64,000 nucleotides of DNA from positions 5,611,563 to 5,675,562 of the forward strand of contig OZ004594.1 of NCBI GenBank assembly GCA_963924555.1, written 5' to 3'. The position numbers and the translations under genes were made by a program. Origin of the DNA: Crambe crambe (Eukaryota > Porifera > Demospongiae > Poecilosclerida > Crambeidae). The notes below the pieces were generated by a model, which did not search any database, was not told the origin of the DNA, and saw only the letters and a list, made by a program, of their open reading frames with translations. Positions 3,736 to 58,100 of the stretch are shown here, in pieces (the stretch's first letter is position 1; every line of letters starts with the position of its first letter).

Positions 3736-6700
3736 TTACACCAGATTATTTATTTCAACTAATACTCTCTGACTACAACAATCCCTAGTACCATCATGAA
3801 CTTTGCTATGCTTTTTAGACTTCAAACACATATTTTCAGAATCACTGCTTCTCGAGCACTCTAGTGTTTGATTCTTCACTTCTGAGTAAGTTGACTTGTC
3901 AATTTTAGGACAATTGTCCAACGTCTTCTGTCCCATAAAATCATTTTCACAAACACAATCAATAGAAGATACAAGTTTGGAGTTGTCATTTTCTGAAATT
4001 GAGGATCCACAAATGTGCAGCTTGCTGCAATTTGAATGAGTAGATGAGAGGTTAGCATTGATTTGATTGTCATCACAAACTTCCTGAGTGTCCAAACCAT
4101 CTTGAACAACTGTTGGAGCTACTTTAGGGGTGCATCGGCAAGGCTGGGCAGAAGAAAGTGAAAGGTCACTAGATATAAATTCATCACTTTGGAAGTAGTA
4201 CTTGAGATTATGATTAAAAATCTTCTTCACATCCTCATACGCAATTATGGGGTATTGACTGACACAGCCTAACTCACTACTCCTGTACCTGGAGAAAATG
4301 ATGACATAATATTATGTAGATTAATTTTCATTAGGCTAACCCCATGTGTGCACCTAACATGACATTTAAAAATAGAGAGCTGGATTTGAATGGGTAAAAA
4401 AAAAAATTAAAAAAAAAAAAAGGGTATACTGACAAGGCAAGAGAACATGCAATCATGGACAAAATTAACCGATGCAATCGAGCTCCATTTGAATGCAGAA
4501 TAAGGTATTGATCAACAATTATGTAAGACCAGGAGCAGATGTATTCATTCCTCCACACTATGCATAGGATAGGCCCAATATACCAGTATACCACATAAAC
4601 TGTACCTGTGAACTACTGCTTCAAGTTTAATTGAACGGTTATCTGTCACAGTGTGCTTGTCTGTGAGACAATGCTCATAGATAGCCATACAGCATTCCTG
4701 GAGGTCCATAATGGAGAGTCCGGTGTACTCAGTAAGATAAGAGGGCCAGGGGCAATCTAATACAGAAAAATACACAGCATTGTGGCTAGAGGGGTGGCTA
4801 CTGTTATTACTAACCATAGTTCAAGAGTATTCTAGCCAGTAAAAAAGAGGATGCTGCCAAATGAGCAGCAGTGTAAGAACCAAAAATGAGGTGATGAATC
4901 AAACTTTCCGAGAGATAGTATGCCATATGACGAACAAGACTGTCAGCACCAACTAAGTCAAAGAAAATCTCCATGTAGTTGGGAATAAGCACTCTCTGCA
5001 AGGAAAAGATACTTAATATTTAATCGTACCTAAAATATCAAATACCACCTTAACTTTGCCCCTGAACACAGCCAATAGTTCTCCAGTCATTCTGACCACT
5101 TCATCATATCTGTAAGTTTTTTCAGTCAGCCAGGACGCTTCACGGACTGTTAAAATAAATTCACTAGTCCAGCGGGAAGAAAGGAGAAGAGCAGATATTC
5201 CAAGGAGCTGCAAATGTGAACGGTTGATTTGACGGAGCTGAAGGTAACGATCGATGAGATTAATAGCAAAATGAACTGTAAGTGGTGAGAATTCCTTCAT
5301 GCCAGCAACTTCAACTACCCAGTCAATCAAGATATACCTACAAATCATGTATATAGTTTAGGTATACAAAAGGTTGGCTTATCATATTTTGCATGGATGG
5401 ATCAAAGGAGCGGTACCGTGCTATATCCTTCATACAGCACCGTTTTTAAATAGGCTGTGCTGTATGAAACTCGTACAGTTCAGCCCATACAGCACAGTGC
5501 TGCATGCATGCAATTGCACAAAGCACAACTGATCAGGCTATGCACCAATCAGAACACGCTAGAACAGGATGCGTTGGGTTGTGGTTTCCAAATAGTGTGA
5601 TTATTGACCAAAAAATTTAATCAAGACTCAATGAATATCATTAAAATTGTAAAAAGTGACAAAAAATTGATAAGGAGAAAATTACATCTCCTATAATGGA
5701 TTCTCAGGAAATTAGTCCAACTGTACCATGAACATTAACTTGATTGACACTATACCATTTGCAGTATTTATTATTTATTATTATTAATTTTTTTTATTAT
5801 TTTTTTTGGGGGGGGGGAGCTTAACATTCCCAATCAACATCATCAATCATAGTCATCACGATTGATTTATCACCAGTGTGGTACAGCTCCTTTCAAGGCA
5901 CAATATAGCACTCGGCTTCGCCTCGTGCTATATTGGCCTCTTGACCACACTTCTCGTGCTATATTACACATAATAGCACTCCCTCCAGTATAACTATTAC
6001 AAATATTGTAGCCAATGTGATAAGATAGACTGTATGAGTATGAGGCTTTTTTTTTTTTCAAAAGCAAATAATAATAATAATAGTGCTTGCATATATAAGG
6101 GTTTATGGGATTGGAAAGCAATCTATTCCTTGAGAAAGATCGTAGTTTTACCACCCTAGAGACAATATAATTATGTCAGCTAGTACAAAAACTAACCATT
6201 CCATGTAGCTAAAATTTACCTGCCCCTTAGAACAATTGATTCTATCATGTGTGAGAGGAATCATAGTCCCATTAGCCACTACAGTAGTATTTGTAGCTGA
6301 ACTAAAACCCTCAACACATGCGCAAGGGTTATAGTACTCAATTGGTATGTATATTTTGTGTGTGTATCTGTTATGCAGCCTGTAGTGATTAGAGTGCTCC
6401 AATGTCTATCTAGATGATACTCTTCAGTGCTTAAATTGAGCCGGTTTTTGGATAAAGGCTTTATTCCTGAAAGAAGGCAAGCCTGTACTACATCCATTAT
6501 ATGGACACACACGCTCACTATTGTATGTTTGTTATCTGGACCAATCTACAGGTAGCTCTCTGTCTGTCTAGCAGGAGTGTTTTAATTACGTAGCTATATA
6601 GCTATTATTTGCTTCTACAGTAGTCTAGTGCATGTATCGATCCATCCTACCGTACGCTTTTATAGAGTGCACCTCTAGGCCATAGTATTTTTACATGCAC

Positions 6701-7153: not shown

Positions 7154-10146
7154 AAGATTCTGTCCAAGAAAATGTCATGAAAGAGACACATGGTCAATTT
7201 GATTACCATACACATCATGTTTTCAAGGCTCGAATTACCTACAATACTACACTGGTGTATAAGATCCTGTAATGCTTACATACTATGCTATGGTAGAGAA
7301 CTACCTGGACTTTGATTTCAGCCAACACTTTATAATGGGTTGGCTAGGTTCAGTCTTCATGGAGACTAAGCACTACTTTAGGGAGCAAGCTAGTACAACC
7401 AATGATAGCAAGCTAGAGCATGTACATAATTCTGATCATACAAAGATGCCAGCTACTCCTACTGTACTATGGCATATATAAAAACAAAAAAAAACACTAA
7501 ACTTTGACCCTAGTACATGCAAGTAATACAACCCTGGCATATTAATTATGTATAATGAGAGCTGGACATTAATTTTGTGTGGATATAGAAATTAATATGC
7601 CAAATATGACTTGTAAGTTTATAACCCTGGATAAAGAATGTCATCCCCCCACATTATACCTGACAGTGTGTGATATACAACCTTGCAGCTTGAGCTGTTC
7701 TTCCAAAAAAATAGGACGAGCACTACTAATGACTTGTTTGATGTAGCCACAAGCCTGGGTACTGGAAACACCACCAAATAACCCTTGAGAATAAGCACGA
7801 CAAAGTTCTATTTGTGCCTCCCAATAGGAGGGGATTGACAAAATAATCTTTCTAAGCTGACGCAGAACTCCAAACTCATCATTGAGAATCTGCATGTGTA
7901 AATACAAACTGGCATAATCTTAGTTCATAACAAGCAGATTGCAGGCTTACTCACATTTGGTTTTTGCTTTATTTTCCATTCCTCTAAGGCTGAATAGGGA
8001 CAAGAAAGGGATACACCTCTCTCAAAGAGCTTAGTGATAGAAGAAGAAGACTGATCCAGGACTGAGCTGTCAGATCCTCTATGAAATGATAATGCCTTGC
8101 CCACAGAATACTGTATCCCTGGAATCCTTGTGTCCTGATAAAATTTTTGGTGCATGATTTTATGCTGCAAGTTTCAAACTAATACTACATCAGGGGCAAT
8201 TACATATAACAGAATAAATGTCAAGGCAGTTTGGCTGACCATTTTCCTATTGGTGGTCTGACACTAATTACATTAAAAAGAGCAGGTTGTTTTGAATTTA
8301 ATTCACATCAAATATCAGGTCAACTGCAACTAAGGCCATGGTAGCTATAATGCGTTTAGCTACATCTATATATACACAACTGCACTTTAAAATTCTATCA
8401 TTCCACAATTAGCTATAATTGTACTCACATCTTCTGCATATATCTTCATGTGGTAACACACGCAAGCTTTACAGCATTTATTATTAGAAGCCCAGGGTGG
8501 TCTGAACAGAACCCATGAGAATGGTTGAGAATAAGGGGTAAGCCTTTCAGCATGTAAGAGACACTCACTGGCCTTTATACCATTGTATGCATCAAGTGTA
8601 CCTTTATCTATTCCATCAGGCACTAAGAATCAAGAAAAGGATAGAAGGATACTTCATATTGTACAAATTAATGCACTCACTTCCTTCACTGTATAGATAA
8701 GCCACTGCTAGCACTATCAGGGCCTCCACATTGCCACAGTCAGCAGCCCTAAGAAGAAATGAGCAAACTTATCACTGCACCATAGATCATTCACTTACAT
8801 CACTGCCTAGCACAGTGCATTTTTTTACATTAGCTAGCAACTTTAGGGGGGAAAGCACCATGCTGAACAAGTTTCATATACACCGTTCACTTAGATAACA
8901 TGTTGGCTACTCCTTAGCTACTTTCCATTAGTGTTTGTCAACTCAGCAGTTACTCAACCAATGGGACATAAGTTATTTAGACACCCTCAGGTCCTTAGTA
9001 GCACCCTCGCTGCACTCTGGGATGCTACAGCTTCGGGCCTTCGGGTGTCTAAATAACCCCTTGGTCTTGTTGTCTAACTTATATTTATATACCTTTGAAA
9101 AATGGGCCTACTGCTGTCAGATACCCAATGCCCTTGCAGTGTTGCTTGTGCCCACAGGAATCTAGAATCCTCATCATCCACCAACTTTTGCAACCTGGAA
9201 CATACCTAGAGGGTACAATCAAATAATAAAATACCCAATCAGCAAAAGTATCCAATCATCAAGTCATCTCTGATTCAAGAAATAATAGTAAACTAGACTA
9301 CACTATGAATCTACCACGAAGCTGGTTGGTCAATTTGCAAGGCCAACAGACTTCAGCTTGCAATTCACATCATTGCGATGCATTTTTCGGTCACAAATAA
9401 TGTTTGGGTAATTCCAGTCAGGGAATGAGAATTGATAGTAACTACAGAGTTTTTGAACCACAAGAAAAATTATTCTGCTATGTAGTTCACTTGGCAACAT
9501 TTGGGTTGAATGATTGGCATACATGTAGCTGCCTTGTTTCCTGTTGGCAGAGGAATGTTTACAGTAGGACTGTTAGTCAAATTTCAGACCTTTGTATATA
9601 GCTGCTAAGACAAAGCAAGCAGGCAGCTCATAGTTGTGAGGCTACTAACTACTTGTATAGCTAAAGATTAGATACAGAGGAAATAGCTATTGCACAAGTC
9701 TTTCAGGACATAAATCATTGTGTGTGTGTCTTGTGAGTCAGATCATTTACCAATTGTGTGACAGATAACTGCAATATTGAAAAGCTAGCCATTTACTGGC
9801 TGCAGATTTTAAATACTGATGTTGGAAAATCTTTTTAGGACATAGCAGTCATGAAGAGTCACCGGGGAGTATTTTTACTTCCCTAATAGGATTAGTGATA
9901 CAACGCTAGCCAGCTAGCTATTACTGGCCTATTGTGCTAAGTAGCTAGCAGTAACAGTCTAGCACAGATAGTTTAAATAATTATACCGGTAAGCCAAGCT
10001 AGCATGAGTGAACTCACCAAACGGACATTAGCAAGGTCTCGTAAAGGAAGATAACTTAGTACTAGGCTAGTAACTTCATCCGGGACTGATAGTAAGCAGT
10101 AAGAATGATCAGACATTGAGACCATAGATGTTGAGACTGAAGACAT
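3736..10146 (-). CDS. CCNF: Cyclin F (F-box cyclin, SCF substrate receptor)
   Basis: Cyclin F is the substrate receptor of an SCF ubiquitin ligase acting on cell-cycle and DNA-repair proteins, and it does not need a CDK. Ten exons in transcript order: 10146-10018, 9205-9093, 8748-8681, 8622-8429, 8164-7955, 7889-7660, 5337-5049, 4995-4815, 4756-4606, 4288-3736. They total 2118 nt and encode 705 aa (human about 786). The F-box is near residues 18-60 (SVPDEVTSLVLSYLPLRDLA). A middle region with the family signature PFSWVLFRPPWASNNKCCKA follows. The cyclin N-box starts near residue 315 with RYILIDWVVEVAGMKEF, which keeps the RxL-docking MRxIL-type motif as VRYIL, and a cyclin C-box follows. The C-terminal ~180 residues are Ser-rich, as in the PEST-like tail of the family. 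The start codon at 10146 is chosen because upstream in-frame codons are not ATG. The gene is head to head with UBFD1. Intron 6 (2.3 kb) holds hairpins and a GA microsatellite. Confidence 0.96.
5429..5468. repeat. Inverted repeat, 12-bp arms
   Basis: TTCATACAGCAC at 5429-5440 and GTGCTGTATGAA at 5457-5468 are perfect reverse complements around a 16-nt spacer. Degenerate further copies of atacagcac/gtgctatat flank it (5415-5425 and about 5490-5505). Confidence 0.75.
5875..5951. repeat. Long imperfect hairpin with TTCG loop
   Basis: The outer arms AGTGTGGT (5875-5882) and ACCACACT (5944-5951) and the inner arms CAATATAGCAC (5901-5911) and GTGCTATATTG (5925-5935) are complementary. The tip is CTCGGCTTCGCCTC. 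A third copy of GTGCTATATT follows at 5956. The structure is clear by eye; its origin (MITE remnant or satellite unit) is unknown. Confidence 0.75.
7121..7150. repeat. (GA)15 microsatellite
   Basis: Uninterrupted GA dinucleotides lie inside CCNF intron 6. The apparent ORFs that cross it are artefacts of the repeat. Confidence 0.95.
8972..9057. repeat. Hairpin repeat, family H copy A (CCNF intron 2)
   Basis: The arms GTTATTTAGACACCC (8972-8986) and GGGTGTCTAAATAAC (9043-9057) are perfectly complementary over 15 bp. The core contains ACCCTCAGGTCCTTAGTAG, then TGCTACAGC and GCCTTCGGGT. The core matches copies B (56247-56336) and C (55674-55740), but the outer stem sequence is private to this copy. 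The hairpin ends only 35 bp from CCNF exon 2. Confidence 0.8.
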
Positions 10147-10238: not shown

Positions 10239-13200
10239 ATGGCCAGTGCAGATGATGAAGCACTGTTAAGTGAGAAGGTAAAGGAAGAGAAGCCATCAGA
10301 GGAGCAACGTGAGTCGATCTTGTTATGAATCTAGGATTTATTCCTGTATAAAGTTCCTGTATGAGTCCTTTGTAATAATTATTATAAATTATCTCAGCTG
10401 AAAAGGTGGATTTTCGTGTGGTATGGAAGAAAAGTAGTTATGATGTCTCCTTCCCCATGGATGAGAAGGCAATCAAGTTGAAAGAACACATTCAAACCCT
10501 CACAGGTAATTGTGATAAAAATTTGCATATGGTAAATATGCATGACAATAAAGTGGATGTATGTGGTTTGAGAAAACTGTCCACATCTCTATATGTCCCA
10601 TCCACTAATTAATGGCATCGATGTGCAACACAATCCTTGATTTATCATTTAAAGTGCATTTTCTGGTGCTGCTTCCTGGAAGATATATATAGCTGGCTGG
10701 ATGGAGGAATTTTCTAGTCTGGTTCCTCCAGTAAGGAAAAAAATGGATCCATGGAGTGATTTTATCCCGTAGTTTGTACCCAAATCTGCTAGGTTATATC
10801 TGACATGTAATATGTCCATGCACTAATATGAAGTAAAGGAAAAATTTAGTATGGATGGCTGTGTGTGTACCCTCAATTACCACACCCATATTACCCAATC
10901 CCTACTTCACTCCTCATGAGTGAAGTAGTGCTCTCGTGGGGAGTTGAAGTAGGGATGGGTAATAATGAGTGTGGTTATTGAAATTAGGCTCTTTTGTTTG
11001 AACTTTGCACATAGCTGTCATTATAACGACTTAATCTTGTGCATGCACCACAATCAGTGTATACCAGGCCCTATTTTAACGAAAAACATATGTACATAGA
11101 AAGCTGTTGTAATACTCACCACTACATTAGATGAGCCTGTGCGCTGTGCCTGGAGATAAGCCTAGTGCCTACTATCCATGCACATTATGCACACGTGCGG
11201 GGTGCTATTATTGCACAACACATACATATATGCCTGGGGCATTTTAGTGTAGACCTAGATTTATATTTTTACAATTTTAATGAGTCATGACCTGAGAGTG
11301 ACTCAGCCCGCTCGCTAAATTATCTTTCAAGGATTTAGATTTTCAAAAGGGCCAATACTTCAGTGCTTTTTACATCTCCATGAAAACAAAAGCACTAAAG
11401 TGCTAGCCCTCAACACACATTAACAGTGCTTAGTAGTTGTGTATTAATTTTGCAGATATTGAGCAGATCAGGAGATATTAACAGTCTATCAGAGAGTATG
11501 ATAATACTCTCTAAGTAGGGAAGGCATGGATTGCCCCATTGGACACTAGTACTCTTTCATAATCTTTCCTACTGTCAGCAACTCCTAACTTGATGACAGA
11601 ACACCTTCAATGTGCTAGGACTCAAGTATGAAGAGCAGAAGACAAAGCAGTATCATTTTACAGTGACTTCTAAAATCACCGTTTTCTGATGGTCCTTCTT
11701 CCTCTTTCACTGACTTATTTCAGAAATGGTTCATTGAAATGCTATAATTTTTATACCACACTGCTCAGAATGACTGCACTATAATCCTTTATCTTAACTC
11801 GACATGTTCAAAAATAGTTCGTCATTTTCGCTTTCTACCTGCAACAAGGCAGACATTTTTGCAGTGCACTATATGCATAGAAATACACCCCCCCTTGATT
11901 GGACCTCAATCTCATGTCTGACTAGCTAATCTCTAGACCATATTTGCTGTTACCTGGGATGTTATAATGATTGAGAGAAGAGCTATTTATATCTCTATTG
12001 AGATTGGTTTTTTGATGCTTAAAGAGCGTAAACCCTAGGCACTGATCTGGTTCGTGAATCAAACCTTGATGATTGCTTCAACACTAATATGCCACCCAAA
12101 CTTTGAAAGTATATCAGGTATACATGCAGAACATAAAATACTGTCAATGACAATACAAGCTCCATCAGCATTTGTCCTTCCAGAAGGATCACACTAGCAA
12201 GCATCCAATTGCCTATAAGAATATAAAGTAATTAGTATCTCTTCTAATCTGCATTACATAAAAAAAGTAAAGAAAAATTGGCAAATAGGGATGGCTGTGT
12301 GTAAAGTTCTATGAACAAGAGAGTCCCTCCTAATTTCCATAACCACACCCATATTACCAAACTTCTCTATCCCTACTTCACTTCCCATGAGAACACTTAC
12401 TTCACTCCCTGAAAACTCTTAAAGAATGTTGAGTAGTTGGTAATATGGGTGTTGTTATTGAAATTAGGAGGGGTAGGCTTTCTTATTCATGAACTTTTTT
12501 GAACTTTACACACAGCCATCCCTACTTGCCTGTTTTATTTAGAATATATTCTTTTCCCTTTACTAATTGAATCATCTATTAAATTTGCATGGCATATGCA
12601 TTCCATATTGTTGAGCTAGCTAGCAGTGTCCGTACTATGGAGTCCACATTCTCATTTTGAATTATCATTAGTACCTGCATATAATACTGTTTGGAGAACT
12701 GTACAGATATGATTAAGCGTGCAGGTAAGACAAGCTTGTCATGAGCAACACCATCATAGACTTGTAGAAGCAAAAAAAAAAAGGCTGTGTCTACAGTCCC
12801 AGCAATGGGACTGGTTCATTCAGGCCACCAGTCCCGGCACCCAGGGTTCTTCACAGATTCAGACTGGTCCTGGCACCAGTGAGGACACAGAAAAATTTTC
12901 AAAGATTGAAAAAGAAAAAAGTCCAATTCAGGAATCGAACCCGAGACCGCACATTCAATGGCCTGAACAGACCGATCCCGGTGCCAGGACGGGAGACACA
13001 GCGAAAAAAATAAAAGCATCTTGAGCTAACTACGAGTTTTCATGCTGTTGCTCTACACCAGTCCAACACAGAGCTCACCTTGTAGTTGAACAGCCTAATG
13101 GTCTGCAGCACAGCTGAAGCTAGACTACTGCCTAGTAGGTCAGTGTTGATGATGTCGAGGTTAGTCCTTCATGCCACACCCCCACCAACATGACTAGGAC

Positions 13201-16200: not shown

Positions 16201-19200
16201 GTGATATGTCAGTCTTGCTTGTAGCATAGGATATTGAACTACAGACTAACATTGGGATACATTGTCAGGGTTCTCCCCAGGCTCTTTTTAGAGTGGTGCT
16301 ACTCCAGCTGATGAAATGCCATATAGTGGTCTTTTAATTTCGTTACTTTCATTGATTACCCCAATGGATGAAAATTAATTCTTATGCTCCATCTATGCAC
16401 AAACATACCATCACGCCGTGTGCGATATACCACATGTGCACCCTAGAATTAGCTAGCTAGCTAGCTGCATACGCTCTAGAACCTGTGATATTAGCAGTTT
16501 ATAACATAGGAAAACAGAGCAATTTCTTCCAGGGTGTATATAGCCAACTACAACTGCTTCTTTCATTATTGCTACAGCAAAATGATCTGTGAGGTTGCCA
16601 ACTTCCTTTTTCCATCAAAAGTATCCCAGATGTCTGGTATCCTCACACAACAGATTCAACATTGAAGGTCTCCATGGTAATAGCTACCACAGACTAAACC
16701 AGTTACTGTATAGCAGGAAATTTTCTTTGGTTCAAATTTTTGTTTAGCATGGACCTTTAGAACAAACTTCGAATTTTTTATTTTTGTCAGCACTAAGGCA
16801 ATAAATTTTACACTCTCACGCATGTTGTGCATAGATAAAGAGCTACAGCTAACTAAGTGCACAAAAGTGCTGTGCACTTAGTTTAAAGGTAGTGTTGATC
16901 CTCTAAATTTGATCTCAAAATGAAGGCTGTAGTTATCCATTTTAAGTTACACCTGTACTGTCAGAGAATAAATGCCACTTATGTAGTCTGCTGCTCAAAA
17001 AAGAAACTTTAATAGAGTCTGTAGAAAATGTTAGCAGAGTCTCATATCTGTCTGCAACTAGCATAACCTTCTTATGAATAAGAAAGAACTTAATGGCTGC
17101 ATTACTTTTTTACATTTTTCTTGCTAATGGTACTTTAACTTGTTGTACAATGGACTGGTTAGGTGTTATTTCCAACATAGTGGAACACGAAGCATAGAAG
17201 ATAAGCATTACTTTTTACATTTTCTTGCTAATGGTGTACTTATTATTTTAACTTGTATATGCATGGCCAATGGACTGGTTAGATATTATTGAAACTGTTA
17301 CCAATCAGAGCATTTATTCGGGACACTGAACATTTATGATTGGTCAGATTAGTTACTAGGCTGTGCGACTATAAAATGCCAAGTACTTTTGAAGTGGAAA
17401 AGCATGGAGGATGTTAAAGAATGCAAGAATTGTTCTATTGTATTGAGAATGGCTGACATGAAGTAGGTTCATGACAACCTCCAAGCTAGTAGTGGAGCAC
17501 CATTTGCAGTGGTCTCATCTCCCTGTACATATTCTTCATCTGATAAATGAGCCAAGCATTATGATTCCATTTCTTAACCCATGGATTTCCATTACTTAAC
17601 CCATGGATATAAAGGACTTGGGTCTGCCAGCAAGACAGACTAGATTTATGAAATTTTTTTTAAAGCTTCCTCCCAATAATACACTGTCACTGTCACTGTC
17701 AATGTTTTACGAGCATGCATGTGGAAGTCTATACAAAGCTTCCTGCTAGCCACTTCTGCAGAGCTAAATGTATTAGCTATAGCTAATTGTGAACTTTTTT
17801 GTAGCTTTGTGGTTCATTTTTATCTTTCCAGCTATTCATCATGTCCTTTCATTATGCGTAGACTTATTAGACCATCAAAAATGTGGAAAAGGGTCTAATG
17901 CAAAACATTGAAACCTGGCTTATCATAGTTTACAAGCTACATAATATAACGTACACGAGATGTAAGCACAACTCTGGAATGAAAGTATAGGCTCTCTGCT
18001 GCTTTTATATATGATCATAAAATCTTGAGTTTTGGTATTTTATGGCTTTCATGTTTCTTGCTCCCAGTACTTTCTCTCAGACGGTTGTTTACTTACCTAC
18101 TGTCTCTACTCTCACTGCTTGGCTTTCTTTCAGCTTTTTCATGACTGTTAACTTGCCTACTTGTAACTTTCTGGCTTTCTAAAGGCTCTCTTGCTTCCTT
18201 TTCAGATGATCATGAAATCTTGAGCTTTGTGCCCTCTGCTCTCACTGTTTATGGCTTTCATGTTGGTTATTTTTGCTCCTACTACTTTTCTCTGGCGGTC
18301 GTTAACTTACCTAGCTAAATGGATGACTGAGCTGTAAGGTCAAGCTTAACAAATAGCTAAAAACTTCAGCAGCACCAGCTGTGATCAATCCTCCTTAATC
18401 CAGGGATAGTCAACTTTAAACCCCATGCATGCATTTCTACAATTAGCCCAACGTTATGAAGATGTCATTATTGATTTTGCTGCTGCTTCTGGGTCAAATT
18501 GCAGGCCATCTTGTAATTTTCCAACACTTTATTTTCCGTAGGATGTTCCAGTTTCCATTATTTGCTATTAAAATTAAGTCATCAATATGATTTTTGCAGT
18601 AGCAAAAACCTTTCAAATATTGTCTGCATTACTTAGAATTTGTATGGTCCATTAATGTGTTGGAGATGACTACTAGGAGCTGTATGATGTCATAGTCCTT
18701 TTTGCAGGGGTAGGCAACATAGGCTTGAGCAACATGCAATGTACTCGGAGGTGAATCTGTATATTAAACCATGCTTTGCTATTTGGTAGTTTCTGTGGCT
18801 TAGTGATGAGCAACTATTGTAAAATAATGCAGTCATTTTGTATATTAAAATGGACTTGCCTTACATTGAAGTCTATCCATATTAACATGAGCACAAAAAA
18901 TTTCTTCTAAAAAAAAGTGAAGTAGGGATAACCATAAAATTTAGCTGCATTCCTATCACTCCTAGCCCTCCTAATTTCAATAACCACGCCCATATAATAA
19001 TATCACCCAACTCAAATCCCTACTCTTCACTCCCCCTTCAGCAATAAGTGAGTCAAGTAACCCCTTACCCGTACCCTCAAGAATCACGGCAATAATATTA
19101 TTACAAAACTACTATTCCTACTTCACTCCTAGGCCTCCTTAGGAGTGAAGTAGGAATAATAATATTATTGCTGTGATTCTTGAGTTTGGTGATGGGTACG

Positions 19201-22200
19201 GGTAAGGGGTTACTTGACTCACTTATTGCTGAAGGGGGAGTGAAGAGTAGGGATTTAAGTTGGGTGATATTATTATATGGGCGTGGTATTGAAATCAGGA
19301 GGGCTAGGAGTGATAGAAATGCAGCTGAATTTTATGGCTATCCCTACTTCACTTTTTATTTAGAAGAAATTTTTTGCACTCACTTGTTTCCATTCTTTTT
19401 CTTTATGATTAGCTATATTATATAGAAATTCATAACAACCTTTTAAAATCTTTTTTTTAATCTTCCTCTTTTGTAAGTACGTAGCACTGGATATAGACAA
19501 AATTTGTGTAGTTGGAGGTGCACACACTGGCATGATAAAGTGAGCAGACTAGCTATATGTACAGTCATGTAGGATCAGCATCTATACTGAGGAGTGGCCA
19601 TCTGACCAGAATAAACAGCTAGCTAAGCAATCAACAGTGGTGGATCCAGGATTTTCAGAAGGGAGGGAGCACATAGATGGAGGTTCATCCATGTGCTTGC
19701 GCGCGAGAAAAAATTTGTCTTGCCTGGCCACGCCCACTTTTCCTAACCACATCCTTTTTAGGGAAACTGCGCCCACTTGATGCTTAGCCAGTCTGCAGCT
19801 ACCACTGTAATTCTTACAAGTGGCCACACCAAAGGGGGGGGCATGTGCCTGAAATGCCCCCTCCCTAGATCCACCACTGATCAAAGTACATAACCTGCTG
19901 CAGTCAAAGTACGTATACATAATCTAGCTAGATTTTGATATGATGCTGCAGTGATAAATTTTGGGGCCACCTTGAAGGAGCGACTGCAGCATAAACCTTT
20001 ATTGTAGAACACCGTCTGATCAGAATAACTAAACTAATCATATAATGGCTGCTGAGATTTGGTAGTCTTGCTTGAGGGAGGAGAATATGGGGGGTGAGCA
20101 TCTGCAGTGCAAATGAGCAGTACTTATAGTGAAAAGTGCTGAAGTGCTAACCCTCTGTGCACACTATATGTGTGTGTTTGTGGATATTGAGCAGATAACT
20201 GATGAGGTATTTTATTTATAAAGCATTTAATACTGTTGAGTTAGCTAGCAGTGTCTGTACTGTACTACTGACTGCACATTCTCATTTTGAATTATCGCAT
20301 ATAAAAATATACTGCTTGGAGAAGTGCACAGATATGATTAAGCATGCATGTAAGACAGGAGCAGCTAGCTAATGCATAAAGCCGTCATACACTTTTAACT
20401 AACAGCTATCTATGAGATTTATGCTGTTGCTCTAATCAACTCACCTGTAGTATATGAAGTAGGTAATGAGCGGCAGCACAGAGTGTGCATTATATGAAGT
20501 ATATAGTACACAGGAATCGTGCCTTTTTCTGGAATAAAGCCTTTTTAGTTGGAACAAATAGCAAAAGGCACGCCTGGAAGTAGCGCTAGAGCAGATCGCA
20601 ACGATACCAATGTCATAGCTGCAGCCAGTAAGTCAGTACGCTGATCTTAAATTATTATTATTATTATTATTATTATGAACAAACTGAACAAAAGTCGATA
20701 TCATTTTTTTCCTTATGTTTGTTAGCGAATGAATTTTAGATTTTCGAACATTCTAGACTCTACTGTGTAGGTATAATGATTCACTGTAGCCTTCTGAGAA
20801 CCTGTAGAGTAAGGGTAGAAGAGAAAGAAGAGTTTTTTGTTTATACAATCCTATGAACTTTGACCTGCCATCTTAGTATGCTAGGGCAATTTAAATTGAT
20901 TCACCATTACATACTCTACACTATACTACCAGTAGGGTCAGAATAATCTACATACATCTTGTATCCCCTTCCTCATACTAGGATACACTCGTTCAGCATA
21001 GGGGTAGTTGTACCCCATACCCAGGCTTCACAGAGAGACTGAATATCTGTGCAAAGTAGCTTAGCTATGCATGTACTTGTTGCAAATTATATAGTGGAGA
21101 TGTCCAACTAGCTAGTCCCAACTGCTCTCTGTCAAGTTGATATTATCTAGCTACTCATTCCTTCAAGAGTTCATACACTTTCTAGGTGGAGAGTAGTAAT
21201 AAATGCATCAGTCTACACACGTATAATATACCAGCATTTCATATAAGACAGTTTTTTTCCAATAATAATTATGATTGTTTTGCTTGCCCAATTATTTCCA
21301 TATGGAAGCCAATACAAGACACTGTTAGTATCATCCAGCCGTGATTTTTCTACCTTTTAAATACAGGACAAACTTCCAGATCAGTCATTGTCAGGGATGA
21401 TCAACAAGTATGGATCAAAAGTTAGACTGCATTTTCGATTAGAAATGGATCAGATATGGATTGGCACAAAAGGTGGATGTGACTGATGGTACTTTAAGTG
21501 TTTTGTTTGTTGTTTATTGTTGTTTTTTTGTTTGTTTTTCTTCTCTGCAGAAAGGACCGAAAAGGTGCCTCTGGGTTCAATAAGAAAAGTTATATCTGAG
21601 CCAATTAAAGGTCATGAAGAATATCACATTATGGTAAGATATATAGACCTCTGCTATAAATATTATCAGAATAAAAACATTTCCTTAAAATGAAAAAAAA
21701 AAATGTAGGGATGACCATTGCTCAAAAAAGTAAGGAAAGAAGGGTAGGGATGAAGGATGGAAATAGGATCTATCTTTGTTCTGTATATCCAGCCATTGTC
21801 AACAATCCCTACACATACGTCGGGTAGCTTCAGATTATAGTGCAGTAATAGGATGATATGCTTAACCCCTCGCTGTGCAGGGTGGGGCCTGAAAGAAACC
21901 CTGCTATGCATGTGTTGATAACCTCCTTGGGTTGTTAAAAGGGTCAAGCATCCAACACAAGTACATTATACCTCTCTTACTCTCTGTGTCCATTTTGCTT
22001 TAATGTCAAGGCTAGAGTACTACAGCTATTCAGAATGGTTTCATTAGCACCAAACACTCCTACGGTACACATGGACATGAAATCTAAAATTGCCATCCAG
22101 TGAATACAATTATCCTACAGTTTGCAGTATAATAATTGTCTTCTATTGTTTATAGGGACTTCAAATGGGACCAACAGAAATGTCCAGGTATTGGTTATAC

Positions 22201-31200: not shown

Positions 31201-33843
31201 ATATGCATGCTGCAATTTGGGTAACACAAATGAGCAGGAAGTTGATGCTAAGATACCAAAAAAAAAACTGGGAGAGCTCGTTCATAATCCTTAGGCAACA
31301 CTCCTAGCCCATAGAGGCATATGCTCATCTTATATGCTGCAGAAGCCCACAATTGTCTCAGTAAGGATATATGCAGGGAATCTGTAGAAGGACTTCGATT
31401 CATTCCCACAGCCAATTACACAACTCTTTATACGAACCTGTTACCTGATTTGTCACCAAAAATGGTGCTTGCTTGGGATTCATCAGATCTCTACTACTTT
31501 GTGACTAATCTCTTATCCCAAATTCATTTGATGGAAGCATAGCAGGGCTGCATTTATGGAGAAGGGGCAAATTTTTATTCACTTGGCCACTATAATTATT
31601 ATAATCACATACAAAAAATACTTCCTGGCCAAGGCCCCTAAGTACTCTTCCATACCTGGAGGGTATTGTGGGTTATAAGATGGCTGAGACTGTTGAGTTG
31701 GATATGGATTCTGCTGAACAGGATATGGTGATGCTTGTTTCGGATAAGCAGCACTACCACTAGGGCCTGAATACAAATAAATAAGTAAACAAAAAACAAC
31801 AACAAATAAATAGCTTAAGCAACTACAGAATTGAATACTTGGAGAAGAACAAAAAGATTTAATAACTTCAGCAATCTGTAGCTACCCCTCATTTCCTCTC
31901 ATTCAGTTTCTGGGATTCTTCCTATTCACAAAACGTTATATTTCTGTTGAATATTCCTTTCCACATAATGGGAAGAATAAGAAAATTCTGGCTAGCAGGT
32001 AATAGAATGTACAGCTAACTTTTAAATTAGTCTGAATTCTGAATCCTATTTTATGAGCTTATTATTAGTAGTGGGTCAGCTGTGTTGTGTGGGGAAAATA
32101 GAGTTCTGTGGTTGTCAAGTACAATCTGACAACCAAAAGGACATTTTATTTTTTTCCAAAATAGCACAGCTAACCTACGTGGGTAAGGGTGTGAAGTGTA
32201 AAGTTGCTAGGCTCCGAAGTTGGTTATCGAGAGTGCGTTACACTGGTCATAAGACTGTATAAACAAAAAACTCTTTTTTCTCTTCACAGGTTTTCAGAAG
32301 GCTACAATGAAATACTACATCCACACAGAGAGGGAAGAGTGTATAAAATTTATTCGCTAACATAAGAAAAAATGATTTCTAATTTGTTGTTTTCTCTTTA
32401 TACTAGCAAGTGATAGGTGTCACATTGCCTCTAGTTGAGCCAATGAGCGTGACACACCTTACGCTGGTGTAAGGGCATGAGGTGCCCATGGCACAGAGTC
32501 GGAGCACAATTGGCACAGTTACAGATTTCCTATACAGCACTTTCTAATAGACTATACTATTATCACAATAATGTATAAAAAATTTTCCAGAGAGAGAGAG
32601 AGCTGGCTTCACTCTGCAGCAACTCATGTGTGTACTGAGCTGTTGCAATTGAGCTAGTAAGGATGGTCATGGGCATAAGTCACACAGCAGGAATGAAAGT
32701 CATAGAACTTGGCTTGAGTGACTAGAAGCTACAAAAGTATAAAAGTTAATCTCCTGCGATGGTCAGTAGCCAGCATGCAAAAAATCAGAGCTCCAAGACC
32801 TTCCATGAGCTCAAAATTTACATTATCTACTTAGTATCAGAGAGTGCGCTAACACTCTCCAAGTTAAGTAGGGATGGCAAGTCAAGCCATAAGACTGCAT
32901 GAACTAAAAATTCTTCTTTCTCTTCTACCCTTACTCTACAGGTTCTCAGAAGGCTACTACATTCCCACAGAATGTTTAAAATCTAGAATTCATTCACTAA
33001 CATAAGAAAAACGATTTCTAAAATTGACCTTTGTTCTTTTTCTTTATAATTAAGATCGACACACTGACTTATAGGCTATAGTCATCAAAATTCTGTTTAG
33101 GCCATCTGTTAGAGCGGCACCTAGAGACTGATCTTTTGCTATTAGTTTTGACTAAGGTTCTACTTCACAATTCAGTGATATCTATAGCACCTGGTAGTCT
33201 TTCTCTGTCATTTTGAAGCCAGCACACAGGCAGGGCCCATACATGGGCAGGCCACATAGGATAGTATCTGCATGTACGTGGCTACAGAGCTAGCTAGCTC
33301 TTCTCTTCAGTTTAGCTAGCTAAACTAGCTCCACATCTTACAAAGAAAAAGGATGGAAACAAGTGAGCACAAAAAATTTCTTCTAAATAAAAAGGTTAAG
33401 TAGGGATGGCATATTAAAGGCCTCATGAAAACAATCCCTACATTTATAACTAGGCAGTGGAGGATTGTTTTCACATGAGGCTGCAGCTCCACGTCTCACA
33501 TGTTCCATAAGCTATACAGCTCTAGTACGCTCCTAGATCCTCCAGATTTTGGAGAAGAGAATGAGAAAGTATACAGCAGATCCCTATATTTTTACAGGGA
33601 TTTGCATGCGCGAGACTAGTTGTTTCTCAGTCCTACGCAGGTCTTTTTGGCAACTTAATGTCTCTTGCTGCACAGAGAAATGTGGTATTGTGCACTCAAT
33701 TCTCACAATGTTTCACCTGGCTATTTATATACTTTCCAAGCATAATAATTATGGAACTGGACATAGCTTAAGAATCCAGGGCAAACCATCAAAATAAGGT
33801 ACTCACCACTCTGACTCCCAGACTTCTTCTTCCCAAAAGGCAT
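28214..33843 (-). CDS. DAZAP2: DAZAP2-like proline/glutamine-rich adaptor
   Basis: DAZAP2 is a small adaptor with PPxY-type motifs that binds WW-domain ubiquitin ligases and signalling proteins. Five exons: 33843-33807 (MPFGKKKSGSQS), 31766-31656, 30473-30294, 28554-28397, 28342-28214. Total 615 nt, 204 aa. Exon 3 is a tandem array of a 13-residue unit, GYPPQGAPVNPQP. Exon 4 carries PPPYSAVPGAPPP and GTFDQGARFSG; exon 5 carries PPPPGCAPTAAQVAAAQGQS, VVMTQQKRD and the end SDGGYTLF, close to the DAZAP2 C-terminus (DGGYTIW in human). The lysine-rich N-terminus and the repeat exon are extra relative to vertebrate DAZAP2. Introns are long and full of mobile elements. The gene is head to head with USP22. 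Confidence 0.85.
28812..29612. mobile_element. Older palindromic repeat (TTTTAGGGAATCTTG ends) split by a nested insertion
   Basis: CAGAGGTTTTAGGGAATCTTGC near 28812-28833 pairs with GCAAGATTCCCTAAAATCTCTG near 29590-29612. Related intact copies lie at 54001-54117 (GGTTTTAGGGAATCTTG / CAAGATTCCCTAAAACC) and 53114-53216 (decayed). The middle of this copy is occupied by the element at 28953-29496. Confidence 0.7.
28953..29496. mobile_element. TIR element with ~50-bp ends and 10-bp target duplication, Mutator-like
   Basis: The left end (TAGCCTCGTACCCAGGCCTT, continuing through AAGGGCCTGGTATCCACTGT) and the right end (its reverse complement, closing AAGGCCTGGGTACGAGGCTA) match over about 50 bp. 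AGTTCTAACC directly precedes and directly follows the element (28943-28952 and 29497-29506), a 10-bp target site duplication. Long TIRs with a 9-11-bp duplication suggest Mutator-like (MULE) transposition. The 440-bp interior has no transposase. Confidence 0.8.
29757..30000. mobile_element. MITE family M1, copy with damaged right end
   Basis: The left end GGCAAGTAGGGATGGCTGTG is intact. The interior is self-complementary around CCTATGAGTGCTCTCATGGG, with a short internal duplication of TAGGGATAGAGTAGC. The right end breaks off after GGTAGGCTCTCTTGTTCATG without the closing CCATCCCTACTTGCC. Confidence 0.75.
30297..30462 (-). repeat. 39-bp coding minisatellite in DAZAP2-like exon 3
   Basis: Three near-identical 39-nt units plus a shorter one encode GYPPQGAPVNPQP and variants. 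The array lies within one exon and keeps frame. Confidence 0.9.
30602..30620. repeat. (TA)n microsatellite
   Basis: Short TA run in DAZAP2-like intron 2, immediately left of a TIR element. Confidence 0.85.
30649..31065. mobile_element. TIR element related to the 28953-29496 element
   Basis: The left end GAACCCAGCCTCTTTTGGGG with GTGCCTGGTATTCACTGTGG, and the right end CCAGGCTCTCTTTCTCTCC...AAAGAGGCTGGGTTC, are inverted copies. The subterminal motif GCCTGGTATCCACTGTTT is shared with the Mutator-like element at 28953-29496. A 136-codon plus-strand ORF (30578-30988) runs through it, but it starts in a TA microsatellite and resembles no transposase. Confidence 0.65.
32200..32365 (+). repeat. Dispersed repeat R2, copy 2 (antisense to DAZAP2-like gene)
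   Basis: Contains CATAAGACTGTATAAACAAA, AAACTCTTTTTTCTCTTCAC|AGG and TTTTCAGAAGGCTAC, followed by ATTCGCTAACATAAG, shared with the other R2 copies. Confidence 0.75.
32833..33035 (+). repeat. Dispersed repeat R2, copy 3 (antisense to DAZAP2-like gene)
   Basis: Contains GAGTGCGCTAACACTCTCCA, CATAAGACTGCATGAACTAA, TTCTTTCTCTTCTACCC, TTACTCTACAGGTTCTCAGA and ATTCACTAACATAAG. It is the longest copy. Confidence 0.75.
33355..33490. mobile_element. MITE family M2, short copy
   Basis: Begins GGAAACAAGTGAGCACAAAA and AAATTTCTTCTAAATAAAAA, the same terminus as the long palindrome at 18889-19381. The interior GCCTCATGAAAACAATCC is complementary to GGATTGTTTTCACATGAGGC. Confidence 0.65.
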
Positions 33844-41845: not shown

Positions 41846-43025
41846 CCTAGATCCTTATGACGAGGGGGTGGGGCACGCAGGGGCAGGGTTTAATATGACA
41901 TCATAACACAACGTCTACTCTTGATCTTGTGCTTGCATGCTATGGAGGTTAATACCGAACAAGGGTCCGAAGGAAGGCGATCATCCAGCGACAAAACAAC
42001 GTTAAAGCAGCAGAATCCAGTAAAAATTTGTGGTGGTGGAAGGTAGGTGTTCATAAAGCTATACGGTGATTGTTTTGCTAATCCTACCCTCTTCAGACCA
42101 GACATAGCATCAGTGATGCATTTATGTCTGCGAGCCAATTTAGCAGTTTATCCAATCCCATTTCAAATATTTCTGAGGATTGATTTGAGCACATAGTTGT
42201 GCACATGGCAAGTAGCTTTTATACCTATATCTCCCTTCTGCTTCTTTGAACTGATCCATGGGTGATTTACAGCTGCAAAAATTACCACTTTCCTATTGCA
42301 GAGTGTAAATGTGCTTCATTTGGTAAATAACACCAAATTAGGTAGATGTGCTTTATTTGGAGATAGTAGCTACCTTAAGGTAACTTTTATTAACATGTAC
42401 TCATTTTAGCGAATTTGTAATTTTCGCTAGTAATAATAATACCAGCTAAAAATACGTAATGATTTTGACCATGCCCACACGTTATCTCGAAGTTTTACTT
42501 CTGACCTCTGAACTCATAACATTCACATCATTATAATCATGATAATATTATAGTAATTATATGCTTGTGTGCCCCTCCTTTCCTGGTCATCTCCATCATG
42601 ACCAGAATCATGGCCAAATCCAATTATACATTGACAACACCAGACTTGATTTGCATTTTTCTTGAGCTGCTCCTCAAAATCGCCAAAATTAGACTGAAAG
42701 CAAAAATCGCTAAAATTAGTCTATGCTAATAATAGTTACCTTAAGGTATCTGACTATGTTCCTTATATTAGTTCACTATGCTGTAATTGTTTCCATGATG
42801 TCGACCACTAGTGAGACCAGTGGTATAGGATTTGCTTCATTGAAGACCCTTCATATGCTATTCCATTATTGCTGCTGCATGTATAGCATTGTCGCACACA
42901 TCCCAGCTATCCATGATAATTCCAGTGCAAGATCCCATTCAGCTTTTTTATACAGTAAATACATACGTGAATGCAAAGATGATGGTCCATGAATTATTCC
43001 CTTCTCTAGGAATGCTGCAGACCCA
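41846..43025. other. NUBP1-zinc-finger gene intergenic region
   Basis: This 1.2-kb divergent intergenic stretch has no recognised gene. It should contain the NUBP1 promoter and at least one 5' exon of the zinc-finger gene. The plus-strand sequence before 43008 ends in a good acceptor (CCTTCTCTAG|GAATG), so the 5' UTR or an upstream coding exon is spliced. An 82-codon minus-strand ORF (41890-42138) shows no similarity. Confidence 0.6.
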
Positions 43026-46000
43026 ATGGCTCGTACAGAGTTACTCTCAAGTTCTGCAAAAATTGTTGTTAGTGTGAAATCTGACGTGGACTGTACATCC
43101 ATAATTTCCAATACTCAAGAGGCTACTGTAATTGTCCGGCCTGTTCTCGATGTGCTAAAGGGGTATAACTCACCCTCCAGTCTCAGTGGTAGTCCTGGTA
43201 ACAGTAATCACTCCACTGGTGACATTCCTGGTGAGATAACAAAGATGCTGACACAGAATACTGTGGACTCTCCATCGACACCAGTGATATCCAAGCTTCC
43301 CGAAATTGATTTTGCAAGCCGACGATCACTCCTACGTTATAAATGTGAAAAATGTGGCAGGGAATGTCCCAGTAAACACAAGCTAAAGCGACATCTTTCA
43401 ACACATTCTGAAGCTAGACCTTTCCCTTGTAGCATTTGTGGAAGAACTTTCAAATGGACTGAATACTTGCAGAAGCATATGAGACAACAGCACCCTTTAG
43501 GGAAAAGAGGTAAATGTTGTGGTTTTTATGAAAGGGGTTAGCTTGTTTTATATTCATCGATGTAGGGCCCATTTCACAAGCAGCAAAGGGTTCCTCTATA
43601 GCTTGCAAAGGTAAGCATGCTGTGCATTCAACTCCTATGGATGTGAAGTCCACTACGAAATCCTCCGTGACCCTACGTTTGAAATCTGGAGAACTAGGTT
43701 GTGTACTCAAGTGTGGTGGTAGTTTGGAGCTGTAAAGAATCTCTGTACTATTTATTGTATGTAGATAAGAATGAAAGTGATAAGAAAATTGAAAATACCA
43801 GTGGAAACAACAAAGAACCTCATCCTCATGTGGTGAACAGTGATCAAGAGCAGGTGTGGTTTAGTGGTTATACATAGATCTTGCAACATGAAATTTGGAA
43901 CACCAAACCACATAGCTTCCTTTAAGTAGCCCAACTCTACAGCTACAATTAAGTCCTTTGAAAGGAGGCTATATAAATTTTGGTTTAGTGTCATGTTGCA
44001 AAATCACTGTACATAACCAACAACTTTTTTCTTCTTCATAATTGTGGCGGAGGGTGGGAGGGACCTGCCTCAGAATGAATGAATTTTACTTTTCTTCCTT
44101 TGTTGAATAGGTGAAACAGCCTCCGTCTACACAGAACGTCAGTGTTGGGGTTGACATGGATGCAGAAGAGATGAATGAGTGTGAACATTCTTCAAAAGTA
44201 GAAGAATCAGAACTTTCTGTAAAGGAACTCAATGATTCATCATTTCAATACCCCCAACAGAGTAATGTTGGTATGAGCTGCTGCAGTTCAGAAACAGTTG
44301 TGACTGGAAGTGATAATACGAGACTAGAAAATTGTGCTGGAAATCACAATACCAGTGGCACCACTATGACAGGAAATTTTCATGCAAGTTCAGCAACTCT
44401 TGGAGATAATCATCAGCATCATATAGCTACATCTTATTCCACTGGTATGACACGTACAATACTTGGCAGAATTTTGAGAGAGAATAGTATAGTGGGGAGC
44501 TACTTCACATGTTCATAATGCACACAAAGCTATTGGATTTACTTATCTTTGCCTAGGTAGAGATTCCAAGAGAAGTGAATGTTAACTATAATTTTTTATA
44601 TCTAGAGACTGATGAACGATTTCATTCAACACTCCGAAATCATAACTCTTTGGTCTCCACATCTGGTTACTTCGGAGGTGTTTCAGATTCCATGTGTGAT
44701 ACCTTACCAAGGTGTAATAATAATATGGCAAACATCACTACCAACACAATTTTTTCTCAATCTGCACTTGGTACAGCTGATGTGTTCTCCCAGAATGGCA
44801 GTAGTGGGCTCATGAACTCTAGTTCTATGAATTTGGTTTCATGTTCTTCACATCTTCCTGATCTGATTCACGATAGTACCCTTACCACCATGTCCAATGG
44901 AATCACTATGACCAATGGAAATACTATATCCAGAGGGGTCACTATGTCTGATGGAGCAATTCCAGACAGCATGGATGATAGTATTCAATTTGTGATGAAC
45001 ACTAATAGGACAAGTGGTGTTTTCCAAAGTACGACAAATAGTGGTTTTCAGGATGCAATGAATCATAATTTCCCTGCAACGAATGGTGGTTTCCAAGATG
45101 TGGCTAATGATAGTAACCAAAATGCAACAAATGATAGTTTCCAAGGTACTACAGATTGTCTCCAAGACCCTAGATCAAGTGGTAGTCTCCAACATGCAAC
45201 AAATAGTGGTACAGCAAATAATGGTTTCCAGGATGCAGCAGATAGTGGTTTCCATAATGGTAGTTTCCAGGATGCAACAAACAGTTGCTTCCAACTGAAT
45301 AATGGTGGTCTCCAAGATGCAACTAATAGTGTTCTTGGAGTTCAAAATGCAGTGAACAGTGAAGCTAAATTGAATAATGGTCTCCAAGATGCAATGAATA
45401 GTGGGCTCCATAAGGCAATGAATAGTACTCTTCAAGATCCAATAAATTCTGGATTCCAAGATACGTTGAATAGCGAGATCAGTGGGATTCAAAATGTGTT
45501 CACTGGTGGAATTCAAAGTACAACGAGTGATGGCGTCCAGGTTATTACACCAGCTCAAACTATGATGAATTGTGATCTTCAGGAAACAATGAATAATGAT
45601 CACCTCAATTTCCAATCTCCTAACCAGTATTACAGTGTGAGTGATACGCAGAACTACAATGATGTACCACAGGTGAATTATGTACCATGTTCTATGGATA
45701 CTCAAACCCATTCTTTTGACTCAGTACCTTCTTACATTCACATATCATCGATCACTGATGCTTCAGAGTCTGCTATAGTTTATGAATCAGGTGGTCAAAC
45801 CTACAGTTCTGATTCTTCAGTCAGCCATAGTGTAATGCAGTCTGATAGTACTAATTACTACATGGGTTCTACTGATGTGAACTTACCTAATAACACTAAT
45901 AGTGACCATTTTCCTCGTCAATACGTGACCTCAGAATCTCCTGCCTCAAGTAATGTTCAAGGTGTACCTATTTCTGATATGCAGCAGACAGGGCAATATC

Positions 46001-49063: not shown

Positions 49064-49132
<69 letters not shown>

Positions 49133-55100: not shown

Positions 55101-58100
55101 CTTGTAATTGATATTCAGACTAGCTAGAATAATATATTAAGACACTTACATACCTGTTTATGATTTACTGGATTGATTTCCAATGTGCGCACTTCACCAG
55201 GTACATCTTTACCACTGTATTTCAAGCTATAATGAAAAAGATATCCAAAAATTGCCACTCAGTTGCAAGTGAGATTTAAAAATTTCCACTTAGGCATAAT
55301 TATAATATTATGTAACTTTAAGTTAACATCCAACTTTACCATGGTACATAATATATTTAAAGGAGGAAGAACACAGGCTGAATCAACTTCATTTTGGACA
55401 GCCATGATGAAGTCATGACTCATAAACAGGTGGTATGCTATGAAGTTATAGTATATGATGTAGCTATTAGTGTATGCAGATCAGTCAGAGTAACTATGTA
55501 TCTGTCCTTGACAACAATATTCTAACTCTAGTATCCAAGTATGCAGTGGTTGAAGCCATTTCATACATATACACATTTAAATCCCCACATAGCACTGAAA
55601 TAAAGCAGGCAGACAGTCTGCAGAGCACAGTGCAGTGGGCTCTAATTAGTTTGAGACTGAGTGATCTACAGTATAAGGCCCTGGATTGTGGCAGTCCAAG
55701 CACAGCAAGGGCACCACTAAGAGCCTGAGGGTTTTCTAAATACCATAGATCCAGTTGGTTGAGGCGTCTAACTTAGAACATAGCTGTAGCAACCAACACA
55801 ATGGGTACTATGTTTAGTAGCCGTATGTCCTAAGAACGAGGGCTACTATTAAAACTTAGAACATAGCTAGTTGAATACAGTAATCTTGCTACTCTGAGAT
55901 CTTATTCTCATAGTCACCTGGTAGAGGTAGACTACACATAGTCTTTATGAGCAAGACCTTAGATGTCAAAAGCTAGCTAGATGACTACGAAATGGCACCA
56001 CAGCTCAGTGAACATACAGAGTCCTAGTCACATTAGTGGGGGTGTGGCCTGGAGACTAACCACTCGACGTCATCGAGATTTGCACCAACAGCATGCTGTA
56101 AGCCAGCTAGAAGTTGCGGTCTGTGATGTCAATGTTGTTGCCGTCATGAAAACACAGCATTATGAAGTCCGCTATTTTGGAAACGGTCAATCCATTGCTA
56201 TGTTCTAATTATAAATTAGTTTAACACTTTGACCAATTGGGATCTACAGCATTCAAGAGACCCTCAGGCCCTTAGTAGTAGTGACCTAATTGCGCTCAGT
56301 TGCTACAGCCAAGAGCCTTCGGGTCTCTTAATGCTGTCAGTGTCTAACTATTATTTAATGCCCTCAATGAGGGCACCTGTAACTTATCAATCAGATTGCT
56401 CTATTCAACACAGCTATGTTCTACAGAAAATTAAAGATGTAATTGTAATACAGGCAGTGAATATCGCTTATTGCACGTACAAACCAACAGCAGCAGCAAC
56501 AACAACAAAAGAAATGTAGTCTGGTCCAGCTGGCCATATTAACCATTGTCCCCTATCACGGGTTTAGCCACAACTCTAACTGCCATCAGCTCACACTCAA
56601 CTTGTACAATGAGTGCAATTGCTATTATTCTGTTTTGATGGCTCTGTGTAAAATAACGTTCACCATAGCAGCATGACAAAGCTGGCACATTTGAAACTTG
56701 TTGTGCTAATTATCAGAGTTTGGTATGCATTGCGGAGAACTTCAGTCCGTGTGACCTTGCTTTAATTTATCCATGAGTACCACGAGATGTAGCTGTAACA
56801 TTCCATTGATCAAACTACACAATCATTTCATCACAGGATTCAAACAGTGTGAACTCTTCTCCCAACTTGAGGATAGTGCATGCATATTTTATTATTTATA
56901 CAGCTCATAGTATCATTCAAGTACCACAGAGAGATAGCTACTTACTAAGCTCTAGCTCTTGACCAAGAAAGAACTTCAGGAGACATGCCATCAAACTCTG
57001 TGTCCATAGGATATGTTATCCCACCAAGAGTTCCCACAAATAGGCAGTCACAGTGTGGTGGCAAACAGCATGTGGTTATTGTTTTAGCACTAAAAGAAGA
57101 AAAGCAATCACACATTATAATTAATGTACATGCACAGAGCAATGCACTTACAGTCCTCCTTGAAATTTGTAAGTTCTTCTGAGAATGAGCCTTGAATCAC
57201 CTGCATGATCTACCAAGCTCCACTTATGCATAATATTGTTCGAACAAATGGTGATCAGAGAAGGCTAAACAAATACACAATAGGAATCATTCCAAGTGTT
57301 ATAATGAAGCAGCAAAGTGGTTATTCATAAACTGCTTTGTTTATAGCAGGGCTAAATCTCAACCACAATTCACATAATCGTACAAGGTAACAAAAATGGA
57401 CCAAACACTTGTTACAAGGATTGCTTGCCATGGACAACATACGTACTTCAGAAGTAAATGGCAATATCTGGAGCACTTTATTCACATCATCATGTAAACC
57501 AGATAACTCGACTCCCGGCTGACCAAGCCTGAAAAATTAAACATGACAACTTGATCAGCATCACTACACTTTACTCAGTGGTGGGTCCAGTGGACCATGT
57601 ATTCATACTGTTTTGTCACTAGACCATTATAATGTTGTCCATGCATATCAATCAGGTTCTCTCTTCTCAAGAGTCTTGGTATGACACTATGTCATATAAT
57701 TATTATGTATGTATAACTTAATTCACATGGCTGTAAAGAAAGATGTGATGCTTGCTTTAAAAAGTGTAACTTGTACACAGTTTCACAGCAATCCCTTAAC
57801 TGTATGACAACATCCTTAAATCCTTCATTTGAATTGACTAAACACTTACATTCGTATCTCTCCACTAGAAGTTCCTATAAACAGAACTCTCCGATAAACA
57901 TCAAAAGTCATACAAGATGGAGAAAGTGGAAATCCATGTGGACAGTGCTACAAAGTACATATGTACCAACATCATTGACAACCCGGACAGCAAGGAAGTA
58001 TAACATTCACACCCTGATCATGCATCCTGAATATCTCTTATTCAATAGCTCTCCCGGGCTAAGATGAATTTATTAATCTCGGATTGACAGCAGTTTATAT

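Follow-up and report, generated by a model that had tools for sequence, protein, structure and literature searches.

Oversized hairpins at Helitron2-like 3' ends in the sponge Crambe crambe: arms that probably evolve in concert by arm-to-arm copying in source elements

How can hairpins that share a constant core come to carry different stems, each complementary to itself? This question was raised by three related sequences, A, B and C, in a 64,000-nucleotide stretch of the Crambe crambe genome (contig OZ004594.1, positions 5,611,563 to 5,675,562), hereafter the window. The initial annotation held that the outer stems of A and B differed completely and were private to each copy, and it offered insertion into palindromic targets, regeneration of the stem by template copying or selection on structure as explanations. 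The features of the three copies are as follows (window positions):

8809..8946, plus strand: alpha-body remnant of copy A, 5' of its hairpin; across 65 aligned bp, 8809-8869 shares 91% identity with the bodies of loci L030 and L017, and the piece 8914-8946 matches L004
8949..9078, plus strand: 3'-terminal hairpin of copy A, subfamily alpha (fold z -5.95; alignment with 44 other copies), of which 8972-9057 is the inner part
55649..55772, minus strand: decayed hairpin of copy C, assigned by us to subfamily gamma
55773..55784, minus strand: 3' subterminal inverted repeat of copy C, GCTATGTTCTAA, which is TTAGAACATAGC on the plus strand
55856..56354, plus strand: copy B, an entire 499-bp non-autonomous element from 5' TTAGAACATAGC to 3' CTAACTATTAT, with a body matching L034, L035, L038 and L043
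55856..55867, plus strand: 5' asymmetric terminal inverted repeat (ATIR) of copy B, TTAGAACATAGC
56197..56208, plus strand: its 3' subterminal partner, GCTATGTTCTAA, immediately ahead of the hairpin
56219..56348, plus strand: 3'-terminal hairpin of copy B, subfamily d (fold z -4.28)
56349..56354, plus strand: 3' tail of copy B past the hairpin, TATTAT

Six open frames of the window were also compared with Pfam: C2H2 zinc fingers were recognised in two and a Brix domain in another, the remaining three having no match. Host gene fragments were noted at 47642-50270 (minus strand), 58985-59422 (plus) and 42993-47350 (plus), namely two minus-strand frames without Pfam match, the Brix-domain frame and the C2H2 zinc-finger frames.

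Copies A and B are true hairpins, as had been proposed. None of 200 shuffles folded as well as A (8972-9057; 15-bp perfect outer stem, z -7.3) or as B (56247-56336; 16-bp outer stem with one bulged base, z -4.5), and both extend past these first limits, to 8949-9078 and 56219-56348, respectively. The shared core is real as well, with three occurrences in the window at up to three mismatches versus 0.01 expected. Copy C, on the minus strand, showed no folding advantage over shuffles (z 0.86 at 55674-55740 and 0.21 at 55649-55772), and its description as having lost one arm was a fair one.

The supposedly private nature of the stems did not survive comparison with the rest of the genome. The left arm of A, GTTATTTAGACACCC, was also found in L001, L002, L004, L009, L015, L016, L026 and L030, and that of B, CAGCATTYAAGAGACCC, in L005 and L038. 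A and B are members of different subfamilies. At the base of the hairpin, all subfamilies have the consensus motif GTTAGACA...TGTCTAAC, with few variants. That each copy owed its own stem to insertion into, or copying of, a palindromic target site is suggested by nothing but the contrast between A and B in the window. Stems are, however, common to copies at unrelated sites, and the flanks of epsilon copies differ from one another past the element. Since stems are shared, an outcome that the initial annotation had itself named as refuting, private or target-derived stems were ruled out, and we give this origin practically no credence.

The 143-Mb assembly (119 contigs) was searched for further copies; some of the whole-genome counts are to be read as 'at least'. 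The 19-base core gave 433 matches at up to two mismatches (220 + 213), versus two (1 + 1) for the reversed pattern. The junction GCTATAGTCTAAATAAGTTAGACA gave 166 exact matches (79 + 87) and its variant GCTATGTT gave 21, each with zero for the control. Ninety loci yielded 111 hairpin instances, or 92 without duplicates, and subfamily groups were assigned by us from bodies and stems. The upstream sequence adjoining the hairpin was common to another locus in 73 of 92 instances, and the downstream sequence in only 16 of 91. Shared downstream sequence was found in long duplicated stretches (L021/L022, L028/L029, L059/L060, L065-L067), in the pair L083/L086, which also shares a neighbour, and in the tandem elements L076/L081/L088; L013 and L071 share it without explanation. 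The hairpin was moreover present on several unrelated bodies (alpha, beta, gamma, delta, epsilon and d). Judging by this one-sided sharing and this diversity of bodies, each hairpin is the final ~150 bp of a longer transposon, that is, a 3' end module. A simple MITE was ruled out by the one-sided bodies.

Complete epsilon copies (n = 15, 432-469 bp) start with TTAGACTATAGCTAGTC and end with TCTAACTATTAT, with outer flanks varying from copy to copy. Their first 12 bases recur inverted immediately ahead of the hairpin, forming the ATIRs TTAGACTATAGC / GCTATAGTCTAA, and their 3' end is CTAACTATTAT. Window copy B carries the ATIRs TTAGAACATAGC / GCTATGTTCTAA, and no 5' ATIR partner was found by motif in the retrieved flanks of alpha, beta and delta. 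Direct flanking repeats of at least 3 bp occurred in two of the 15 epsilon copies versus 1.2 expected from shuffling, indicating no target duplication; the base after the 3' end was T or A (nine and six of 15) and the next base was T in 13 of 15. Helitron2 elements are inserted into T-rich targets, generally with no target duplication, whereas Helentrons encode a RepHel that has an endonuclease domain and are inserted at TT. Folding of the 5' end with RNA parameters gave -4.2 for epsilon, a weak -0.8 for gamma and 0.0 for d. In a scan of 65 copies, some of them with misplaced or decayed ends, the flank right after the element was often WTAG, resembling the element's own 5' TTAG. Head-to-tail arrays were found at L081 and L088, with a spacing of 459 bp, and three such junctions lie at C8:2956298-2957249. 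A preference for WTAG flanks, combined with elements starting in TTAG, may constitute a target rule that gives rise to such arrays.

This anatomy resembles that of Helitron2/Helentron elements, as far as excerpts of PMC3627910 and PMC5148889 describe them: 12-bp ATIRs, the 3' one directly ahead of a 3'-terminal hairpin, a 5' end starting with T, a probable 5' hairpin and an apparent lack of target duplication (both in epsilon), and head-to-tail copies. The adjacency of ATIRs and hairpin is given for Helitron2 in both excerpts. Our elements differ in hairpin length, which is ~130-150 nt and reaches some 200-235 nt in the RepHel-linked palindromes described below, and by the absence, among the matches listed, of a protein associated with these exact ends. 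The 3' ATIR also lies ~146 bp from the end (56208 to 56354 in copy B) rather than at 20-30 bp, because the hairpin is long. Helitron1 hallmarks (5' TC and 3' CTRR ends, A^T target) were not found, the ends being TTAG... and ...CTATTAT. The Helitron1 element Helraiser, according to an excerpt of PMC4778049, likewise has a 3' hairpin adjoining its end, but its palindrome measures 19 bp, its ends are TC...CTAG, neither of which is present here, and it has no inverted repeats. The 3' hairpin of that tested element is a terminator (same excerpt), and those described here most likely act as transposition terminators.

Another possible explanation is an ordinary foldback MITE family in which the stems of A and B differ through recombination that gave subfamilies different palindromic ends. 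A single hairpin module on several unrelated bodies does suggest that ends were exchanged between elements. Nevertheless, one-sided bodies, asymmetric inverted repeats and the lack of target duplication are not MITE anatomy, and neither symmetrical terminal inverted repeats nor a fixed-length target duplication was found in epsilon, where they were looked for. Swapping of whole modules would also leave the origin of new matched stems unexplained, and we regard this alternative as very improbable.

The relation between left and right arms was analysed using majority consensus sequences of the six subfamilies together with two single copies, L057 and L046 (eight compared). From 95 hairpins (the 92 and the three window copies), 50 were selected by anchors and length and 43 were kept after trimming; the final alignment comprised 45, L069 being excluded and the three window copies, filtered out earlier, being added again by hand. 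The aligner placed paired indels in non-corresponding columns, so arms were compared directly instead of by a fixed-column covariation count. In the inner helix of 22-24 bp, the edit distance between a hairpin's own left and right arms was 0.5 on average versus 4.4 between subfamilies, and the true left-right pairing was the sole one that good among 40,320. Additional bases, two in epsilon and one in d, were present in both arms, and one unmatched difference was seen in four of the eight. In the outer 20 bases, all eight left arms were nearer to another left arm than to their own right arm (means of 2.4 left-left and 4.1 own left-right). Some covariation was left in this outer stem, where 432 of 40,320 pairings were as good as the true one, and the bases adjoining GTTAGACA covaried in several subfamilies. 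In every subfamily part of the outer stem stayed asymmetric (TCG/GAG plus a bulge), suggesting that any arm copying would not be blind.

The idea behind the initial annotation was borne out between subfamilies only: stems are shared within subfamilies, and between subfamilies they differ yet remain self-complementary, the true pairing of the inner helix being the best of all 40,320. Between subfamilies the two stem halves change together, most likely one being copied from the other. Within subfamilies, almost every change in a single copy lacked a match in the other arm (40 copies, with 16 edits on the left and 31 on the right, window copy C, L019 and L036 being left out). One possible matched change was noticed in window copy B, with CAGC in both arms versus mostly CGGC in the right arms of its subfamily, at a CpG site. 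Since changes are matched between subfamilies and unmatched within copies, source elements appear to restore their pairing, which resident copies then lose.

Strong folding and covariation would also be expected from an RNA gene, for instance a microRNA-like or structural RNA, that had spread as a repeat and whose stems were kept paired in RNA. This is hardly compatible with the position of the hairpin at one end of mobile elements, and on one and the same strand the unmatched cells of the consensus stems include G/T as well as A/C, which does not fit a single RNA strand. No Rfam family reached its gathering score in the window, and we consider an RNA gene highly improbable.

Helitron proteins were sought in the same genome. 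Helitron_like_N had 67 matches, 34 of them in frames of more than 1,000 aa, and L094 encodes Helitron_like_N and a PIF1 helicase, with an OTU domain in a second frame. No RepHel gene with exact window-family ends was found among the matches listed (100 of the 166 junction places and the variant junction matches). When the listed core and junction matches were compared by eye with the 67 Rep places, none lay within ~10 kb downstream of a Rep, and the window-family hairpin was absent from the A-group end (L091/L092) and from a 5-kb stretch of the C-group RepHel L094. One group of RepHel elements is also terminated by palindromes, of ~200 nt. L096 and L097, taken 6.8-7.8 kb downstream of one Rep match each on C8 and C17, show 99.4% similarity as far as such a palindrome extends and are unlike past it, and the sequence preceding the palindrome was found 7.1-8.2 kb downstream of six of the nine Rep matches that we assign to class B (C1 twice, C5, C8, C16, C17). 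Over a few kb upstream of the Rep matches in this B group, the 19-base sequence that precedes its hairpin was not seen, so that a B-group ATIR is at most putative. Downstream of two other Rep matches, the similarity of L091 and L092 stops where a perfect inverted repeat of 160 bp ends, the spacer of which measures 452 bases; in L091 this structure occupies 1513-2284 and is followed by (AAT)n, absent in L092.

The palindromes of L093 and L096 differ in their 100-column stem by seven substitutions and a 17-column gap, all in both arms, with 76 columns unchanged. No change was confined to one arm of the stem, although one gap column is a position where the arms of L093 differ. In the 15 apical columns, correspondence between the arms is lost through inversion of the loop (another count of this pair gave 24 identical columns, one of them apical). 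Indeed, the L096/L097 loop is at edit distance 2 from the loop of L093/L095 when the latter is reverse-complemented, versus 11 in forward orientation. Similarity among L093, L095 and L096 continues past the palindrome, and the L093/L095 end is thus less well bounded. In the window family a single inverted loop was noticed: the hairpin at L069:1602-1741 has its apex inverted relative to outer arms and body (edit 7 vs 21). Seven palindromes of the second family (L091, L093, L096, three from the window and one from L069) were submitted to the pairing comparison, three of ten having no anchor and being left out; the true pairing was the best of 5,040, and own-arm distances ranged from 0 to 12, with a mean of 4.4 versus 15.9.

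Window palindromes around TAGGGATGG, at 18888-19382, 12274-12536, 52343-52574 and 33346-33480 (the last one partial), are related to those downstream of Rep matches, and in the three tested the arms match better within than between copies. A separate hairpin family, GTTAGAACACGG...CCGTGTTCTAACTATTA, occurs in L016, L055, L085 and L091 (~3800-3940 in the latter); it has the same TCTAACTATTA tail as the window family and an unrelated stem.

Pure selection, in which a terminator that must pair is mutated in one arm and later compensated by a separate mutation in the opposite arm, would dispense with arm copying. It agrees with the terminator role of the 3' hairpin in a tested Helitron (PMC4778049, excerpt), with the compensatory changes reported between two related Helitron2 elements (PMC3627910, excerpt), with changes that are matched between subfamilies and mostly single within copies, and with the conserved asymmetric bulges, which point to selection on form. 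Beyond point mutation, however, indels of 1, 2 and 17 nt in both arms would require coordinated double events, and neither the zero one-arm changes in the stems of two RepHel palindromes nor the loop inversions are expected from it. Selection alone is in our opinion an unlikely explanation.

Arm-to-arm copying is the best explanation of the matched arm changes, as judged from the compared sequences; selection alone explains them less easily. Paired indels, the absence of one-arm stem changes between L093 and L096 and inverted loops argue for copying, and the persistent asymmetric bulges for selection acting as well. Regeneration of the stem by template copying, one of the initial suggestions, therefore gives the best account of matched arm changes, indels and inverted loops, but apparently in source-element lineages and not at each insertion. 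The reading that we favour, with reasonable though not full confidence, is that a superfamily of non-autonomous, Helitron2-like rolling-circle transposons carries these hairpins as its 3'-terminal palindromes, the stems being renewed by arm copying in source elements under terminator selection. In a source element, the hairpin would be extruded and one arm copied from the other, be it by a template switch, by fold-back repair or by the repair of mismatches in a self-annealed single-stranded intermediate. Such copying would replace the inner stem as a whole, occasionally flipping the loop, terminator selection would retain paired versions and the fixed asymmetric bulges, and inserted copies would then decay one arm at a time.

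It is also conceivable, though we hold it only tentatively, that the 3' terminator is rebuilt during transposition itself, the single-stranded 3' end folding back and one arm being resynthesised on the other, with the loop sometimes flipping. This would make it a self-correcting terminator, in which new matched stems arise in one event, and the step would resemble the hairpin transfer of parvovirus ends. Parvovirus terminal hairpins show flip and flop, the loop of the terminal palindrome being present in both orientations. Here the likeness is one of analogy, our data including neither a virus gene nor hairpin-transfer machinery. A parallel in sequence change is provided by RNA genes, in which template switching explains multi-base compensatory changes in both arms as well as loop inversions (PMC8794818, excerpt); the hairpins described here differ in being transposon ends, with many copies per stem state.

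Among the open-licence papers listed in our literature searches, neither concerted arms nor loop inversion was mentioned for Helitron ends in any title or opening abstract lines, although PMC3627910 mentions compensatory changes. It has long been asked how paired stems can change while avoiding broken intermediates. Because one genome offers hundreds of copies in several states of the stem, together with paired indels and inverted loops, arm copying can be distinguished from selection. The known form of Helitron 3' ends is widened by these elements, and searches that rely on short hairpins at the terminus could overlook such ends.
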